A stretch of DNA of 46,385 bases from a virus, in the IMG/VR virus record IMGVR_UViG_3300020020_000062, positions 1-46,385 of that record; one strand, written 5' to 3'. The position numbers were made by a program, and so were the translations under genes. Below the pieces are notes generated by a model. The model had not been told where the DNA came from, made no database searches, and saw only the letters and a list, made by a program, of their open reading frames with translations. How positions within the stretch are numbered: the first letter of the stretch is position 1; each line of letters starts with the position of its first letter. Positions 2,739 to 15,528 of the stretch are shown here, piece by piece.

Positions 2739-4480
2739 CCGAAACCTTTACTCCTCAGAGATTGTATTCTGATGCTGAAGTTATTTCAGCTACAGATGAA
2801 GCTATAGCTGTTAAAAAGCATTATAACGCACCAACACGTTTACAAGATAAGTGTGAAACCTGTGGAAAAGTTGCAGTTGTCAAAAGTCTTTCAATTGTTG
2901 CAGTATCTTCAGGTAGAAAAAAGGTTATCCAACTTGAGTGCGGTCATTTCATTTTCCAAGACGCGCAATCAACTTCTGCTTTCGAGACTATCACTTTTGA
3001 TGGCTCTCCTGATTGTAAACACTTATGGGGCACCGCTAAGTCTCGCACTATTTGTCAAATTTGCTCTGCACGTCGTCTTTATGAATATCAAGTTAAAGGC
3101 GCTCAATTTCTAGAAGAAGCAAATGGTAGAGGTGCCTTATTTGATGAACAGGGTCTTGGAAAAACTATTCAAGCCCTAGCTTATTTAAAGTTTCATGAAA
3201 ATGATGCATGGCCTTATCTTTGGGTAACTAAATCTGGTATTAAGTTTCAGCATGCTAAAGAAATCGTTAGAGTTTTAGGAAAGCATGCATTACCTCAAGT
3301 ATTGCAAAAGGGAACAGATACATTAATACCTGGCATGAGTGGTTATCTTTGTTCATATGATATCTTTCGTCGTCTTAAGAACTTAGAAATGTTCAAGGAA
3401 GCTGGAGTTAAAAGTGTCATCCTTGACGAAGTACAAGCTATTAAAAATCCAGATTCAAGTCGAACACAATCAGTTCGTAAAGCAGTTAGGGACATTGGCA
3501 AGGTTATACCGACTAGTGGGACACCATGGAAAAATCGTGGTAGCGAATTCTTCGTTGTCCTTAACTTACTTGATCCTAAACTTTTTGGTAATTATGAAGC
3601 CTTCAAACGTAATGACGTTGCTTACTACTATGAAGGAAACAGAGAAAAAGAGGGTGGTCTACGTAATCCTGTGGAATTTAAGAAAAAGATTGCTCATATT
3701 GCGATTAGGCGTGAAAGAATAGAAGTAATGCCAGAATTGCCTCTCATTAGTAGAAACAAGCTAACAGTAGAGGTTCCTGATTATGCGCGCAAGGCATACA
3801 AAGAAAACGAAGATGCTTTAGTTAATATGTATAATCAGGCAGTTATCGATGGAGAAGAAGATTCATTCGAGACTCAACAGAAGATAATGCAAAACTTGAT
3901 AATCATGCGTGCTATCGTAGGCATGGCTAAAGTTGATGCTACTTGTGAATTTGCCCAAGAATTTTTAGAAGAGACCGATAGAAAGCTAGTTATCTTCGTT
4001 CATCATATCGATGTTGGTAAGGCAATGTTCGCGCGTATGCAAACTTGGTGCGTGGAAGAAAATGTTCCTCAGCCATTGGTACTTACTGCGAGTCTATCAT
4101 CAGAAGAAAGATTTCATGTTCAGGAGCAATTTAATAGTCCTTATAAGAGACTAATGATTGCTTCTACTTTAGCATCAGGTGAAGGATTAAACCTTCAAAC
4201 TTGTTCAGATTGTGTTATTCATGAAAGACAATGGAATCCAGCCAATGAAGAACAAGTGGAAGGCCGTTTCATCCGCATTGGACAGATGGCTACTGCTGTT
4301 ACTGCTACTTATGTTCATGGCGACGATACAATTGATACTATCTTGGATAGTATTGTCGAAGCAAAGCGTAGGGAATTCGCTAATGCCATGAATAAAGCAG
4401 GTTATGTTCAGACTTGGCAAGAAGATAGTATCGTTAAACAACTTGCTCAAGCACTAGCTAATCGTAGGAGAAAATCATGA
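2735..4480 (+). CDS. SNF2-family DNA helicase/ATPase with N-terminal zinc module
   Basis: A 581-residue superfamily-2 ATPase expected to translocate on duplex DNA or remodel DNA-protein complexes during phage replication or recombination. Motif I is DEQGLGKT (137-144). Motif II is DEVQ (231-234) in place of DEAH. SGTPWKNR (261-268) is motif III. The C-terminal RecA lobe has LVIFVHH (418-424), SGEGLNLQ (481-488) and QWNPANEEQ followed by RFIRIGQ (511-517), the SNF2 motifs V and VI. Before the helicase core lie CETC (40-43), CGH (69-71), Cys94 and CQIC (107-110), a zinc-binding module. It overlaps both neighbours by four bases. It acts in the cytoplasm; its partner proteins are unknown. Confidence 0.92.
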   Translation: MTETFTPQRLYSDAEVISATDEAIAVKKHYNAPTRLQDKCETCGKVAVVKSLSIVAVSSGRKKVIQLECGHFIFQDAQSTSAFETITFDGSPDCKHLWGTAKSRTICQICSARRLYEYQVKGAQFLEEANGRGALFDEQGLGKTIQALAYLKFHENDAWPYLWVTKSGIKFQHAKEIVRVLGKHALPQVLQKGTDTLIPGMSGYLCSYDIFRRLKNLEMFKEAGVKSVILDEVQAIKNPDSSRTQSVRKAVRDIGKVIPTSGTPWKNRGSEFFVVLNLLDPKLFGNYEAFKRNDVAYYYEGNREKEGGLRNPVEFKKKIAHIAIRRERIEVMPELPLISRNKLTVEVPDYARKAYKENEDALVNMYNQAVIDGEEDSFETQQKIMQNLIIMRAIVGMAKVDATCEFAQEFLEETDRKLVIFVHHIDVGKAMFARMQTWCVEENVPQPLVLTASLSSEERFHVQEQFNSPYKRLMIASTLASGEGLNLQTCSDCVIHERQWNPANEEQVEGRFIRIGQMATAVTATYVHGDDTIDTILDSIVEAKRREFANAMNKAGYVQTWQEDSIVKQLAQALANRRRKS

Positions 4481-8394: not shown

Positions 8395-8784
8395 ATGTTG
8401 CTTGAACCTAAGAAGGAAGATCTCTCGGCATCCACAATTGTTGAACCTGCGTGGTATCGAGTTCACGTTGATGATGTGGAAGACAAACCAAACAACAAAG
8501 GAACCGGGACAAATTCCTGGCTTAAGGGTAAGATTGTTTGTAACGCAGACACTGGAGATAAGAAGTTCGAGGGAGTTCCTACTCCATTCCTTTGGATGAT
8601 TTCATCTAACGGAATCATGTTTGCTGCAGCTCTATTCCGTTCTATTGGAGTAGAGTTGGAAGTTGGTAAGCGTTACGATACTGGTGCTTTTAAGAGCCGT
8701 GACCTTGAAGCATTTATCGGTAACGAATTGTACGAGGGATTGATGCAAAACAAGATGATGGGTAAGTATCGTCCTGCTAAGTAA
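8395..8784 (+). CDS. Possible ssDNA-binding protein (DUF669/OB-like)
   Basis: A 129-residue protein with AAGGA before the start. It has alternating short strands (AWYRVHVDDVEDKPNNKGTG, WLKGKIVCN, VGKRYDTGAFKSRD) and a Gly/Asn-rich KPNNKGTGTNSWLKG loop like that of DUF669-type phage proteins found beside Sak4 ATPases. That context, rather than a diagnostic motif, is the main support for ssDNA binding. Codon use is slightly richer in GC than that of its neighbours, which may mark high expression. The first pseudoknot leader begins nine bases after its stop. Confidence 0.6.
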   Translation: MLLEPKKEDLSASTIVEPAWYRVHVDDVEDKPNNKGTGTNSWLKGKIVCNADTGDKKFEGVPTPFLWMISSNGIMFAAALFRSIGVELEVGKRYDTGAFKSRDLEAFIGNELYEGLMQNKMMGKYRPAK

Positions 8785-8792
8785 TTAAATGA

Positions 8793-8889
8793 AACTGGAT
8801 GATAGGTAATACGCTCGGAATAACTATCAACGTGTTAATACATCAACGAACCTGATGTATAACTTCACTAGAGACAACATCCAGCGAGC
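8793..8889 (+). ncRNA. Pseudoknot leader RNA, copy 1
   Basis: P1 is CTGGAT (8795-8800) with ATCCAG (8879-8884). Inside it, P2 is ATAG (8802-8805) with CTAT (8824-8827), capped by the loop GTAATACGCTCGGAATAA. A variable hairpin P3 pairs ATACATCA (8838-8845) with TGATGTAT (8853-8860). The loop bases GCTCG (8813-8817) can pair with CGAGC (8885-8889), which lies directly 3' of P1, giving a pseudoknot that could stack on P1. A second copy at 9091-9159 keeps the pairing through compensatory changes. Exactly 19 bases separate it from the GGAG of the next gene. It does not match a riboswitch consensus I know, so its ligand or protein partner is open. Confidence 0.7.
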
Positions 8890-8917
8890 ACTTTATTCGT
8901 TAACCAATGGAGTTACA

Positions 8918-9079
8918 ATGACCAGACTGCGTAAGATTGAGACAGCCATTGCTATTGCTGGAGTTATGTTTTGTAGTGTTAACTACATTTCTCTAGCTAC
9001 GTGGATTCGGATTATCGCACGCGGTTGTATTATTGGTGGATGTGGTGCTGGTGGTTGGGATGGAAATGGTTATCAGTAA
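8918..9079 (+). CDS. Small membrane-like protein behind pseudoknot copy 1
   Basis: A 53-residue product starting MTRLRKIETAIAIAG. I chose the ATG at 8918 because GGAG at 8909-8912 is well spaced, and because an upstream in-frame start at 8855 would lie inside the pseudoknot RNA. It has a hydrophobic stretch (IAIAGVMFCSVNYISLATWI), a second one with Cys (IIARGCIIGGCGAGG) and a Gly-rich tail. It could insert in the membrane with one or two spans. No family is recognised. Confidence 0.55.
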   Translation: MTRLRKIETAIAIAGVMFCSVNYISLATWIRIIARGCIIGGCGAGGWDGNGYQ

Positions 9080-9090
9080 CTCGTAACAAT

Positions 9091-9159
9091 AACTGGATGC
9101 CAGGTAATATGCTCGGAATAACTGGGAGTTCTCAGCAAACTCTCCTCAATCCAGCGAGC
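9091..9159 (+). ncRNA. Pseudoknot leader RNA, copy 2
   Basis: P1 is CTGGAT (9093-9098) with ATCCAG (9149-9154). P2 is CCAG (9100-9103) with CTGG (9122-9125), replacing the ATAG/CTAT of copy 1 so that two base pairs change on both sides. The P2 loop GTAATATGCTCGGAATAA differs from copy 1 by one base. P3 is GAGTT (9126-9130) with AACTC (9138-9142). The pseudoknot pairs TGCTCG (9110-9115) with CGAGCA (9155-9160). The AGGAG (9179-9183) of the next gene again starts 19 bases after the pseudoknot strand. A CCTTTTTG run just 3' could also let it act as a transcription attenuator. Confidence 0.7.
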
Positions 9160-9189
9160 ACCTTTTTGTTAGTTTAATAGGAGTTAACA

Positions 9190-9408
9190 ATGAAAGATAA
9201 TGAGTACTATGAGTTGTTTAGTTATGAATTATCAGAGCCAGATACTAATGATGGTCCTGATGATGATTTCCTTAAAGACCGGGATGAAGTGGAGTCTGGT
9301 TTAGGAACAGAAGATGAAGACGAAGATTTTGAAGAAGACGAAGACGAACCAGAAGATTTGGAATTAGAGGATCCCAATTCTTCTGATAAGACTAACGATG
9401 ACGACTAA
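9190..9408 (+). CDS. Extremely acidic small protein, possible DNA mimic
   Basis: A 72-residue protein with AGGAG six bases before the ATG. From about residue 19 onward it is dominated by Asp and Glu, with runs such as TEDEDEDFEEDEDEPED and a terminal DDD; it has very few basic residues. Such composition is typical of DNA-mimic inhibitors (for example T7 Ocr, from general knowledge), but also of disordered acidic tails, and there is no sequence homology to Ocr. It is expressed behind pseudoknot copy 2. The role as an anti-restriction or DNA-binding-protein decoy is inference. Confidence 0.6.
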   Translation: MKDNEYYELFSYELSEPDTNDGPDDDFLKDRDEVESGLGTEDEDEDFEEDEDEPEDLELEDPNSSDKTNDDD

Positions 9409-9548
9409 CTTACTGGACTCTCCATTGGGTAAGCACTAGTCCGAGTTAGGTAACAATTATCAGGAGGACAAGTGCGTGTGCCTAATTGTGATTAACGTGT
9501 TTAACAACACAGACACAAAATAAAGCACACGCACTTGCTTTTAATTTT
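9407..9548 (+). promoter_or_regulatory. Structured leader with 12-bp inverted repeat and short ORF
   Basis: A 140-base gap carries two structures. First, GGACT (9415-9419) pairs with AGTCC (9438-9442), with AACT/AGTT outside. Second, AAGTGCGTGTGC (9470-9481) pairs perfectly with GCACACGCACTT (9525-9536), followed by the T-rich GCTTTTAATTTT. A strong AGGAGG (9462-9467) precedes GTG codons at 9472 and 9476. The hairpin's left arm covers those starts and its right arm lies 12 bases before the ATG at 9549, which has no Shine-Dalgarno of its own. This geometry fits translation-coupled attenuation or a start-codon-sequestering switch. Confidence 0.5.
9476..9523 (+). CDS. Possible 15-residue leader peptide
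   Basis: A GTG start eight bases after a perfect AGGAGG opens a 15-codon frame (MCLIVINVFNNTDTK) that ends one base before the right arm of the 12-bp inverted repeat. A ribosome reading it would break the hairpin. A GTG at 9472 in another frame gives a seven-residue alternative (MRVPNCD). No other gene starts near this strong ribosome binding site, which is the main reason to report it. Confidence 0.35.
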   Translation: MCLIVINVFNNTDTK

Positions 9549-10179: not shown

Positions 10180-10430
10180 AAGAACCCACACCGGAATATG
10201 TTGGTAGTAATATTTTTGGTGATGTTAGAACTGATAGCCGCGTAAATCCAGATACGACGGAATGTTTATACTGTGTTGTATATACTAGTGACTCGGGTGA
10301 TAAACAGAGTAAAGTAGCAAACCACAGAGTAGAATACAAAATCCCTCTAGATAGTATTAGTGAGGGTTTTAGACAGTGCCCAGCATGTAAGAAAGTTTAT
10401 ATTGTTGGAAAGTTTATTCCAGAATCATGA
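10176..10430 (+). CDS. Zinc-ribbon small protein upstream of DNA polymerase
   Basis: An 84-residue protein with CLYC (residues 30-33) and CPAC (68-71), the two halves of a zinc ribbon separated by a beta-rich stretch. It starts within the HTH gene stop and its own stop overlaps the polymerase start (ATGA), so it is translated just before the polymerase. It might be a polymerase accessory; the sequence only supports zinc binding. Confidence 0.65.
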   Translation: MKEPTPEYVGSNIFGDVRTDSRVNPDTTECLYCVVYTSDSGDKQSKVANHRVEYKIPLDSISEGFRQCPACKKVYIVGKFIPES

Positions 10431-12922
10431 ACATCTACGTACCAGGTAAAGGACAGAGAGAACCTAACATAGCATTTGTAGGCGAAGCCCCATCATGGAA
10501 AGAAGAAGAAAAACTTGAGCCCTTTGTTGGTCCATCTGGAGCTCTTTTTGATTCTCTTCTACGTGATTGCGGCATCTCTCGTGATAGTAGTTGGCTTACT
10601 AATGTATGTAAGTACATGGTTCCGGCTAATCCTAAAAAAGGTAGGAAGATTCCTTTCTGGGTCCGTGCAAAATCAGTAGGAATAGAACGCGAAAGATGCA
10701 TAGAAGAACTTAGGTATGAACTACAACAAGTAAGTCCTAAGATGATTGTTTGCTTAGGTAACACGGCTCTTGAGGCCGTAACTGGTAAGGATGGTATTAA
10801 ATCTTATCGCGGTTCCCTTTTACCAGGAATGAATGGTGTTAAAACTCTTGGCACATATAACCCTGCTCACATCTTACATCAAGATGGAGAAGTAAAAGGT
10901 TATTGGAATAAAACGGTAATGGCTCTTGACTTAACGAGAGCATCCTATCAGTCAAGGTTTAGAGAATTAGATTTACCTAAGAGGACACTTCATGTTGCTC
11001 GTAGCTCTTCTCAGTTCGCTGATTTCTTATATCGTTATAAGAATTTTAGTAAACCGTCAATTGATATCGAAGCGGACCCTGGTGGTAGTTGCATACCTAT
11101 CTGTATCGGCATTGCTTTTACTCCATATGAAGGAATTACAATTCCTCTATGGAATCATAAAGGAATTAGTGATTTACCAGATTCTGAAATAGTTCAGCTA
11201 TGGAACATGGTAAGTGAGTTCTTAGAGACACACGAAATTGAAGGACAGAACTTTGGGTATGATGAATCTAAGCTAAAGATGTTAGGTATCTCTGTACGAC
11301 GTGTAGCAGAAGATTGCATGTTAAAGTCTTTTGCAATCTATGCAGAGTTACCTAAGAACTTAGCTTTTAATACGAGCATACGCACTCTTGAGCCATTTTA
11401 TAAAGATGAGGGAATGTATGAAGGGTCAGTTGATGATTTGCTTATCGGATGTGCTCGTGATGCTTGTGTTACGAAAGAAGTTTCCATATCTCAAGATAAA
11501 GATATGGAAGAACTCGGCACGCGTGAGTATTACGAGAATTTTCTTATCCCTTTACGTTATACATACCTGGCCATTGAAAACCGTGGTATCAGAGTTGATC
11601 CGAATAAGAGAAGAGAACTAATAGTTAAGTATATTACATGGAACGAAGAACTAAATTATAAACTACATAAAATTTGTGGTCATGCTATCAATGTGCAATC
11701 ACCACCCCAAGTGAGTAAACTTCTATATGACCAATGGAAAATACCGGAACGTAGTGGAACAGGTGAAGAAGTTCTTACTAGTATCCTTAATTCAAACGTG
11801 GTTAAGAATGAACTCCATAGGGAGGGGATTTCACTCATTCTTGAAGGGCGTAGGGTTAGGAAAACTATCAGTACTTATTTGTTTGCGGCCACTGATTATG
11901 ATAACCGTATGCGCACATCGTTTTTCTTGTGCCTTGAAACCGGCCGTTCGAGTACAAACCAACAAGAACCACCAATAAGACCTTGGATTAATTATCGTGA
12001 CCAAAAGAAAGTTAAGAAGAAACAAGCGCGGGGAATGGCTTTCCAAACTATCACCAAACACGGTGATATCGGTCAAGATATACGTTCGATGTTGGTGCCC
12101 GATGAGGGGTATATATTTCTACAAGCAGATAGTTCCCAGGCAGAAGCCCGAGTAATATTTCTTTTAGCCAATGAAGATTTGAGGTTATTCGATGAACACG
12201 ACCTACATGCTCTTACTGCTTCTTGGTTTTTCGGTGGTACTGAATCTGATTACTCTAAGAAAGTATTGGGCTATGAGACGCCGTTGCGATTTGCAGGTAA
12301 GACTTTACGACATGCGGGCCATCTCGGAGCCGGTAAAAGACGTGCTGCGATATCAGTCAATACAGACGCAAGAAAGTTTAAGATTTACCAACCCGGGACG
12401 AACACGATTTTCCAAATAAGTGAAAAGAAAGCTGATGAAGCATTAAAAGTATTTCACGCGCGTCAGCCTTCTATTAAAGGAGTTTATCATGCCTCTGTCA
12501 TTAAGGCATTGGAAAAGAATAGAAGGCTTATTGCGCCGGTTCCTGTTGGAATTAAAGCAGGAGTTGGAGGTGTTAGAATCTTCTACGAGCGTTGGGGAGA
12601 TGAACTCAATAGACAGGCTTTTAGTTACATACCTCAAAGATCTGTTAGTGAAAACACGAAATGTGCAGCACTCTATATTGATAGATACGGAGAACAGGAA
12701 ATCCAAATCTTAATGGAGTCACATGATTCCCTGTTAGTTCAATGTAAGGTTGAGTATGCACAAGAAGTTGCATCGGTTATGAGGTATGCTTTTGAAAGAC
12801 CAATTGATTTTAGTAAATGTTCTATTCCCTGTGGTGAATTAGTTATACCATGTGAAGTTGAAAGTGGAATGAATTATCAAGAACTAAGTAAGTTTAAATG
12901 GAATGTTGAGGTTGCTTCCTAA
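10427..12922 (+). CDS. Uracil-DNA glycosylase / DNA polymerase I fusion
   Basis: An 831-residue replicative polymerase. Residues 1-170 resemble family-4-type uracil-DNA glycosylases: GEAP (19-22), PFVGPSG (32-38), TYNPAHIL (143-150) and Cys61, Cys91 and Cys109, but no N-terminal CxxC pair. Next is a DEDD 3'-5' exonuclease: DIE with Asp213 and Glu215, NFGYD with Asn275 and Asp279, and CARDACVT with Asp345; the usual Tyr four residues earlier is Gly341. The polymerase has motif A DSSQAE (568-573), motif B with Arg621, Lys625 and His629, and motif C HDS (767-769). His629 sits where E. coli Pol I has Phe762, and Leu633 where it has Tyr766. It should replicate phage DNA in the cytoplasm. ATGA overlap upstream, TAATG downstream. 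Confidence 0.92.
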   Translation: MNIYVPGKGQREPNIAFVGEAPSWKEEEKLEPFVGPSGALFDSLLRDCGISRDSSWLTNVCKYMVPANPKKGRKIPFWVRAKSVGIERERCIEELRYELQQVSPKMIVCLGNTALEAVTGKDGIKSYRGSLLPGMNGVKTLGTYNPAHILHQDGEVKGYWNKTVMALDLTRASYQSRFRELDLPKRTLHVARSSSQFADFLYRYKNFSKPSIDIEADPGGSCIPICIGIAFTPYEGITIPLWNHKGISDLPDSEIVQLWNMVSEFLETHEIEGQNFGYDESKLKMLGISVRRVAEDCMLKSFAIYAELPKNLAFNTSIRTLEPFYKDEGMYEGSVDDLLIGCARDACVTKEVSISQDKDMEELGTREYYENFLIPLRYTYLAIENRGIRVDPNKRRELIVKYITWNEELNYKLHKICGHAINVQSPPQVSKLLYDQWKIPERSGTGEEVLTSILNSNVVKNELHREGISLILEGRRVRKTISTYLFAATDYDNRMRTSFFLCLETGRSSTNQQEPPIRPWINYRDQKKVKKKQARGMAFQTITKHGDIGQDIRSMLVPDEGYIFLQADSSQAEARVIFLLANEDLRLFDEHDLHALTASWFFGGTESDYSKKVLGYETPLRFAGKTLRHAGHLGAGKRRAAISVNTDARKFKIYQPGTNTIFQISEKKADEALKVFHARQPSIKGVYHASVIKALEKNRRLIAPVPVGIKAGVGGVRIFYERWGDELNRQAFSYIPQRSVSENTKCAALYIDRYGEQEIQILMESHDSLLVQCKVEYAQEVASVMRYAFERPIDFSKCSIPCGELVIPCEVESGMNYQELSKFKWNVEVAS

Positions 12923-15441: not shown

Positions 15442-15528
15442 GCCATGATGGCGGAATTGGTATACGCATAAGACTTAAAATCTTAGGCCCTTCGGGGATT
15501 GAGGGTTCGAGCCCCTCTCATGGCACCA
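15442..15528 (+). tRNA. tRNA-Leu(UAA)
   Basis: A class-II tRNA of 87 bases. The acceptor stem is GCCATGA (15442-15448) with TCATGGC (15518-15524), and the 3' end ACCA is encoded. The anticodon arm TAAGA-CTTAAAA-TCTTA gives anticodon TAA, reading the codon UUA. The long variable arm is CCC-TTCG-GGG and the T arm is GAGGG-TTCGAGC-CCCTC. TTA is common in this AT-rich genome, so the tRNA likely supplements the host pool. A run of eight T follows and may end or weaken transcription. Confidence 0.95.

Follow-up and report, generated by a model that had tools for sequence, protein, structure and literature searches.

The window considered here, i.e. the whole stretch of DNA that was analysed, comprises the 46,385 bases of the IMG/VR virus record IMGVR_UViG_3300020020_000062 (positions 1 to 46,385). 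Two similar segments that precede two small genes of this record had been taken in a preliminary description for duplicate copies of a pseudoknot RNA, and the locus raises the question whether the RNA itself is the conserved unit and what such an element would do at a gene boundary.

Architecture of the two RNA copies

Both segments, 8795–8889 and 9093–9159 on the plus strand, fold alike: stem P1 closes the structure, P2 is a hairpin engaged in a pseudoknot, and P3 forms an arm that varies. The copies share a 33-nt block with 91% identity (8793–8825 and 9091–9123) and a 19-nt block with 89% identity (8879–8897 and 9149–9167), and a 21-nt core is present twice, where 0.01 occurrences would be expected in the window. 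In copy 1, P1 is built from CUGGAUG (8795–8801) and CAUCCAG (8878–8884); six of its seven pairs are kept in copy 2, with the 5′ strand at 9093–9099 and the 3′ strand AUCCAG at 9149–9154. The P2 stem reads AUAG/CUAU in copy 1 (8802–8805 and 8824–8827) versus CCAG/CUGG in copy 2 (9100–9103 and 9122–9125). Its loop has the form AAUA-[6 nt]-GAAU, and base pairing between this loop and the strand immediately 3′ of P1 creates the pseudoknot; the loop segment spans 8808–8821 in copy 1, with the pseudoknot strand CGCUCG at 8812–8817, and 9106–9119 in copy 2, with UGCUCG at 9110–9115. The resulting helix GCUCG/CGAGC adjoins P1, its 3′ strand being CGAGC (8885–8889) in copy 1 and CGAGCA (9155–9160) in copy 2, where a sixth pair, U-A, is gained. 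A P3 hairpin is found in both copies, with 7–8 bp at 8838–8860 according to the fold and with 5 bp at 9126–9142, formed by GAGUU and AACUC, and the pseudoknot is followed by a U-rich tract, ACUUUAUU at 8890–8897 and CCUUUUU at 9161–9167. P1, P2, the pseudoknot and the P3 hairpins lie where the preliminary description had placed them, to which the U-rich tract is an addition; its distance of 19 nt between the pseudoknot and the GGAG of the next gene applies to copy 1, whereas 20 nt were counted in copy 2.

An RNA family in uncultured phages

Other uncultured phages in IMG/VR contributed 20 additional distinct copies, which brings the total to 22. An exact 20-nt pattern led to three other viral contigs, in one of which the RNA precedes a different gene, and 57 related loci were gathered through an alignment of the polymerase. 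A covariance model built from only four copies retrieved the previously unseen members L138, L151, L156 and L158 and later L217 and L222, with E-values of 9e-10 for L217, 2e-6 for L222 and near 2e-5 for L151 and L138, while L132 was matched weakly (E 0.15). L161 and L243 were added by a pseudoknot descriptor together with a second covariance model, and a scan of IMG/VR with P1 and the loop fixed and P2 left free yielded L273, L274, L277, L284, L285, L291, L294 and L288, the latter with two copies. Applied to 12 whole records, the first model gave one match each in eight of them and two in none, and missed the most diverged copies. An unconstrained junction descriptor was too noisy for use alone. 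Candidates L006–L010, near-identical stretches without a pseudoknot partner, were discarded as chance pattern matches, and the R2 matches L152 and L200 were likewise judged to be due to chance.

Beyond the uncultured phages, none among the at least 117 matches listed for the pattern GTAATANGCTCGGAAT in bacterial genome contigs combined P1 with the pseudoknot, and a 51-nt consensus query returned nothing meaningful from cultured phages and plasmids. Rfam 15 recognized only a tRNA in the whole window; with permissive filters over the two window copies the best hit, to a lncRNA sequence model, had an E-value of 4.6, the L243 copy gave none at E 1, and the loci of three other copies gave none either. 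A word-based (not structure-based) search of open-licence papers did not retrieve a description of the motif. The window copies are thus members of an RNA family not catalogued before, whose small folded molecules reside in intergenic regions of uncultured phages and retain their shape although the sequence changes.

Covariation and consensus structure

The 22 copies were arranged in a gap-free alignment from which P3 and the variable linkers had been trimmed by hand, the register being set by the analyst. In this trimmed alignment standard pairs occupy 90.4% of the cells, compared with 69.6% in shuffles, and changes on both sides occur in 12 of the 17 pairs of P1, P2 and the pseudoknot. The covariation score amounts to 0.515 versus 0.120 in shuffles and at most 0.12 when the strands are slid, values that hand trimming and sequence relatedness can inflate; moreover, some members were partly selected for pairing, since the descriptor that collected them required it. 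Without a real fold, however, the wholly different pseudoknots of L132, L161 and L243 would be difficult to account for. Covariation was already present in the first 12 members, 11 of which had come from models or exact patterns alone.

Every P2 pair covaries, as does P1, and the pseudoknot, which is absent from both covariance models, covaries in five of six pairs, its variants including CGCUCG/CGAGC, UGAUGG/CCAUCA, AGUAGGG/CCCUACU and GUGGGG/CCCUAU. Across the 22 copies, GGAU is invariant in P1; AAUA and GGAAU, which flank the pseudoknot strand, are likewise constant, as are UCC and the C that opens the 3′ strand. P1 closes a junction, the P2 loop pairs back to the strand after P1, and P3 is a free variable arm, its region ranging from 19 to 85 nt without conservation across the family; entire members measure ≈ 60–125 nt. 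A structural role would suit the invariant bases of the loop, which may equally mark a binding or catalytic site. A likeness of GGUAAUACG...CGGAAUAACUGGG to the 530 region of 16S rRNA was dropped because P2 varies freely. The compensatory changes demanded of homologues by the preliminary description are hence present in 22 distinct copies, and its central proposal, that the RNA fold rather than a protein is the conserved unit, is borne out, since P1, P2 and the pseudoknot all covary strongly.

Genomic context

All 22 copies lie on the same strand as their flanking genes. The element is intergenic, the distance from the stop codon to P1 being 6–13 nt in ≈ 11 copies and 21–128 nt in most others, and some copies are preceded by an extra hairpin, which lacks a U-run in the five copies inspected (L001, L138, L151, L156 and L217). 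In most copies the upstream gene is a homolog of window gene 8395 (8395–8784, plus strand), which precedes copy 1 and whose product is predicted to be a single-strand DNA-binding protein (SSB) with an OB fold. The structural model of this protein (pLDDT 91) finds its best match in the PDB in the ssDNA-binding protein PrgE (E 3e-5); 3 of 24 homologs weakly match the SSB family phrog_378, and an SSB protein search with a single sequence returned no match. In L273 (reverse-strand coordinates 3084–3335) a gene reading as HNH endonuclease-like from its sequence alone separates the RNA from the SSB-like gene.

The downstream side is far from uniform. Copy 1 is followed by a gene for a 53-residue membrane-like protein (8918–9079, plus strand), a homolog of which also stands behind the L001 copy, and copy 2 by a gene for a 72-residue acidic protein (9190–9408, plus strand); D/E-rich genes follow many other copies. 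Elsewhere, the next gene is a homolog of window gene 7319 (L003), encodes an unknown 68-residue protein (L243) or, judged by its sequence only, a cold-shock-like protein (L284), or is a tRNA-Leu (second copy of L288). The same type of tRNA, tRNA-Leu with a UAA anticodon, is found in the window at 15442–15528. The next start codon lies between 19 and more than 100 nt beyond the pseudoknot (19–44 nt in most copies and 19–30 nt in about half), so a fixed GGAG spacing is not a feature of the family. The phages L277 and L291 contain no homologs of those early genes of the window that were tested.

Some further observations concern the same region. Most relatives encode a small protein consisting to about one half of D/E after the SSB-like gene, at the positions homologous to 9190–9408 of the window. 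The SSB-like proteins were seen without an acidic tail of their own, and one might speculate that the D/E-rich protein serves as such a tail in trans. After the acidic gene of the window, 9469–9537 holds a strong inverted repeat of 22 nt with 86% complementarity and, behind it, CUUUUAAUUUU, an arrangement that is terminator-like. Other window genes encode a SNF2-type helicase, a Sak4-like protein and a terminase, and at 10427–12922 a uracil-DNA-glycosylase domain is fused to a family A DNA polymerase.

The U-rich tract and the SSB 3′ junction

In nearly all members a U-rich tract begins 1–2 nt past the pseudoknot. Counted from the pseudoknot, the U fraction over the 22 members is 0.50–0.86 from +2 to +8 and ≈ 0.27 beyond; with 4–5 U the tracts are short, and those of L217, L222 and L294 are weaker. 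The stems in front of them consist of 4–7 bp of pseudoknot and 5–7 bp of P1, if stacking of the two is assumed. Of 84 distinct SSB junctions from relatives, 28 show a stem of at least 9 bp with a U-run behind it, whereas shuffles gave 0.4 and the regions that follow six other genes 7 of 287. Plain terminator-like hairpins occupy this junction in L204, L246, L227, L181 and L190, and other stems at the SSB junction enclose 42–116 nt of further structure.

At least three other recurring kinds of structured RNA were seen at the SSB 3′ junction of the same phage group. One of them (L178, L193, L205, L223 and L236) is characterized by the conserved sequence GUAGCUAAACC(U)AUAACCUA, by GAAAGUCAGGAUAAAGUGGUCCUG in most cases and by a long closing stem with a U-run in several; Rfam at its gathering threshold gave no match for it in L205, L223 and L236. 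Another, with a GCACGUAAAAUGACGGAACCC-like core, occurs in L201 and L212 and probably in L241, L245, L251 and L257. Hairpins with a symmetric AAUAA/AAUAA internal loop follow the SSB-like gene in L137, L195, L200 and L220; counting a fifth in L217, which overlaps the pseudoknot RNA, they are present in 5 of 84 regions versus ≈ 0.25 in shuffles, and they may be related to the AAUA/GAAU core.

Comparison with known RNAs

The putative stem of the element, with a U-rich tract 1–2 nt behind it at the 3′ end of a gene, resembles that of intrinsic (Rho-independent) terminators, and true terminator-like hairpins take the same junction in sister phages. Unlike in these terminators, the stem beside the U-tract is a pseudoknot helix placed on a junction, with invariant loop bases, and termination by it is putative. 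In flavivirus xrRNAs it is the second hairpin that carries the pairing loop, and the 5′ end passes through a ring. The present fold shares with flavivirus and dianthovirus xrRNAs the pairing of a junction hairpin loop downstream of the closing stem, and this pairing covaries; its sequence differs, a conserved 5′-strand contact is missing and nuclease resistance is putative. Hammerheads likewise carry the pairing loop on the second inner hairpin, whereas here it is located on the first, and neither a hammerhead core nor an Rfam match was found. With the type II hammerhead the element has in common the inner hairpin loop that pairs with the 3′ tail just past the closing stem, and hammerheads do occur in intergenic regions of phages (PMC3088659).

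The translational operator of T4 gene 32, a pseudoknot of ≈ 28 nt followed by UUAAA repeats, is situated upstream of its own SSB gene (PMC535899). Although both are pseudoknots in phage mRNA near an SSB gene, the RNA described here in most cases closely follows the predicted SSB gene, behind its stop codon, and otherwise lies elsewhere, and in position the comparison with gene 32 drawn in the preliminary description does not carry over. The put RNA of HK022, cis-acting, ≈ 70 nt long and present in two copies per genome, consists of two stem-loops near early promoters (PMC9378689). Length, twofold occurrence in one phage genome and putative action in cis agree, but the element folds into one junction and a pseudoknot with a U-tract, and it is placed at gene boundaries in mid-operon. 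T4 gene 32, HK022 put and the type II hammerhead each share one trait with the family and fail another.

Proposed function and alternatives

Because of the U-rich tract and the enrichment of stems with U-runs at the SSB junction, the element may be assigned to an end-of-gene slot that would be filled by a partial terminator or a 3′-end protector. Its best explanation, which we infer with about even confidence, is an intercistronic terminator or attenuator, or a 3′-end protector, built from a pseudoknot. A structured stop or slow-down signal at gene ends is most likely, rather than a switch of a single gene, and the variation of the next gene, which can even be a tRNA, speaks for it. The pseudoknot helix directly adjoins P1, and stacking of the two could give a stem of 12–13 bp before the U-tract, which would then act like the stem of an intrinsic terminator. 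Part of transcription would end after a strongly needed gene, usually that for the SSB, and/or the 3′ end of the mRNA would be shielded against exonucleases, while the next gene would be expressed at a reduced level. Against a terminator it can be held that the invariant AAUA and GGAAU exceed its needs and may represent a binding or catalytic site. Furthermore, about half of the copies have a start codon at a distance of only 19–30 nt, so that genes behind the element depend on read-through, and a role as a leader becomes conceivable.

Such a leader would control translation of the next gene, either as a riboswitch or as an operator bound by a protein of the phage or its host, the neighbouring SSB for instance; this is a serious but doubtful possibility. 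The proximity of a start codon (19–44 nt) in most copies, the acidic-protein gene behind many of them, invariant loop bases that could serve as a recognition site and the precedent of the T4 gp32 pseudoknot operator (PMC535899) would suit it. On the other hand, neither the next gene nor the Shine-Dalgarno spacing is constant, which argues against a gene-specific leader as envisaged in the preliminary description; membrane, acidic, cold-shock-like and unknown genes and a tRNA follow instead of the genes of one pathway. Pairing with the Shine-Dalgarno sequence, as in a sequestering expression platform, is at chance level in both window copies (73/500 and 334/500 shuffles), and the copies in L277 and L291, phages in which no homologs of the tested early genes were seen, also count against a leader. 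A stop-codon read-through pseudoknot was also considered and rejected, given the 21–128 nt between stop codon and P1 in most copies outside the 6–13 nt group and the unrelated upstream genes.

That a mechanically stable pseudoknot halts an exonuclease and so defines the end of a stable piece of mRNA is unlikely; the xrRNA-like loop pairing past the closing stem and the position at gene boundaries are consistent with it, but the conserved 5′ contact of the xrRNA type was not seen and the U-tract would need a separate explanation. More improbable still is a self-cleaving ribozyme that processes the polycistronic mRNA. Its attraction lies in the compact pseudoknot fold with few invariant bases and in the phage intergenic hammerheads, whose type II pairs the loop of a stem with the 3′ tail in a pseudoknot (PMC3088659); yet the ribozyme models of Rfam are unmatched, the CUGANGA/GAAA core of hammerheads is absent from the conserved core of the 22 copies, and the junction has no conserved unpaired bases. 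Least credible is an element acting at the DNA level (promoter, operator or replication signal) that is palindromic by chance: repetition within one genome would fit, but the orientation with the flanking genes in 22 of 22 copies and the covariation of the pseudoknot, a signature of the single strand, do not, and promoter-like sites around the window copies do not exceed those in shuffles.

Returning to the signal at gene ends, we tentatively entertain, as a rather unlikely extension, a new class of phage RNA in which a compact pseudoknot either bars the way of an RNA-handling enzyme (polymerase or exonuclease) at gene boundaries or cleaves itself there, and which is one of several non-homologous RNAs that interchange at the SSB 3′ junction.

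Implications

The two copies in the window represent a well-supported RNA family with a covarying pseudoknot that is missing from Rfam 15 and is found at changing gene boundaries; at least two of the phages that carry it showed no homologs of the tested early genes of the window. At the junction between the SSB and acidic-protein genes, folded RNAs and plain terminators interchange, a natural experiment on what is required of an element at this place. Should the RNA prove to terminate transcription, it would show that a terminator can be made from a pseudoknot with a conserved core; should it halt a nuclease or cleave itself, it would be a new functional RNA.
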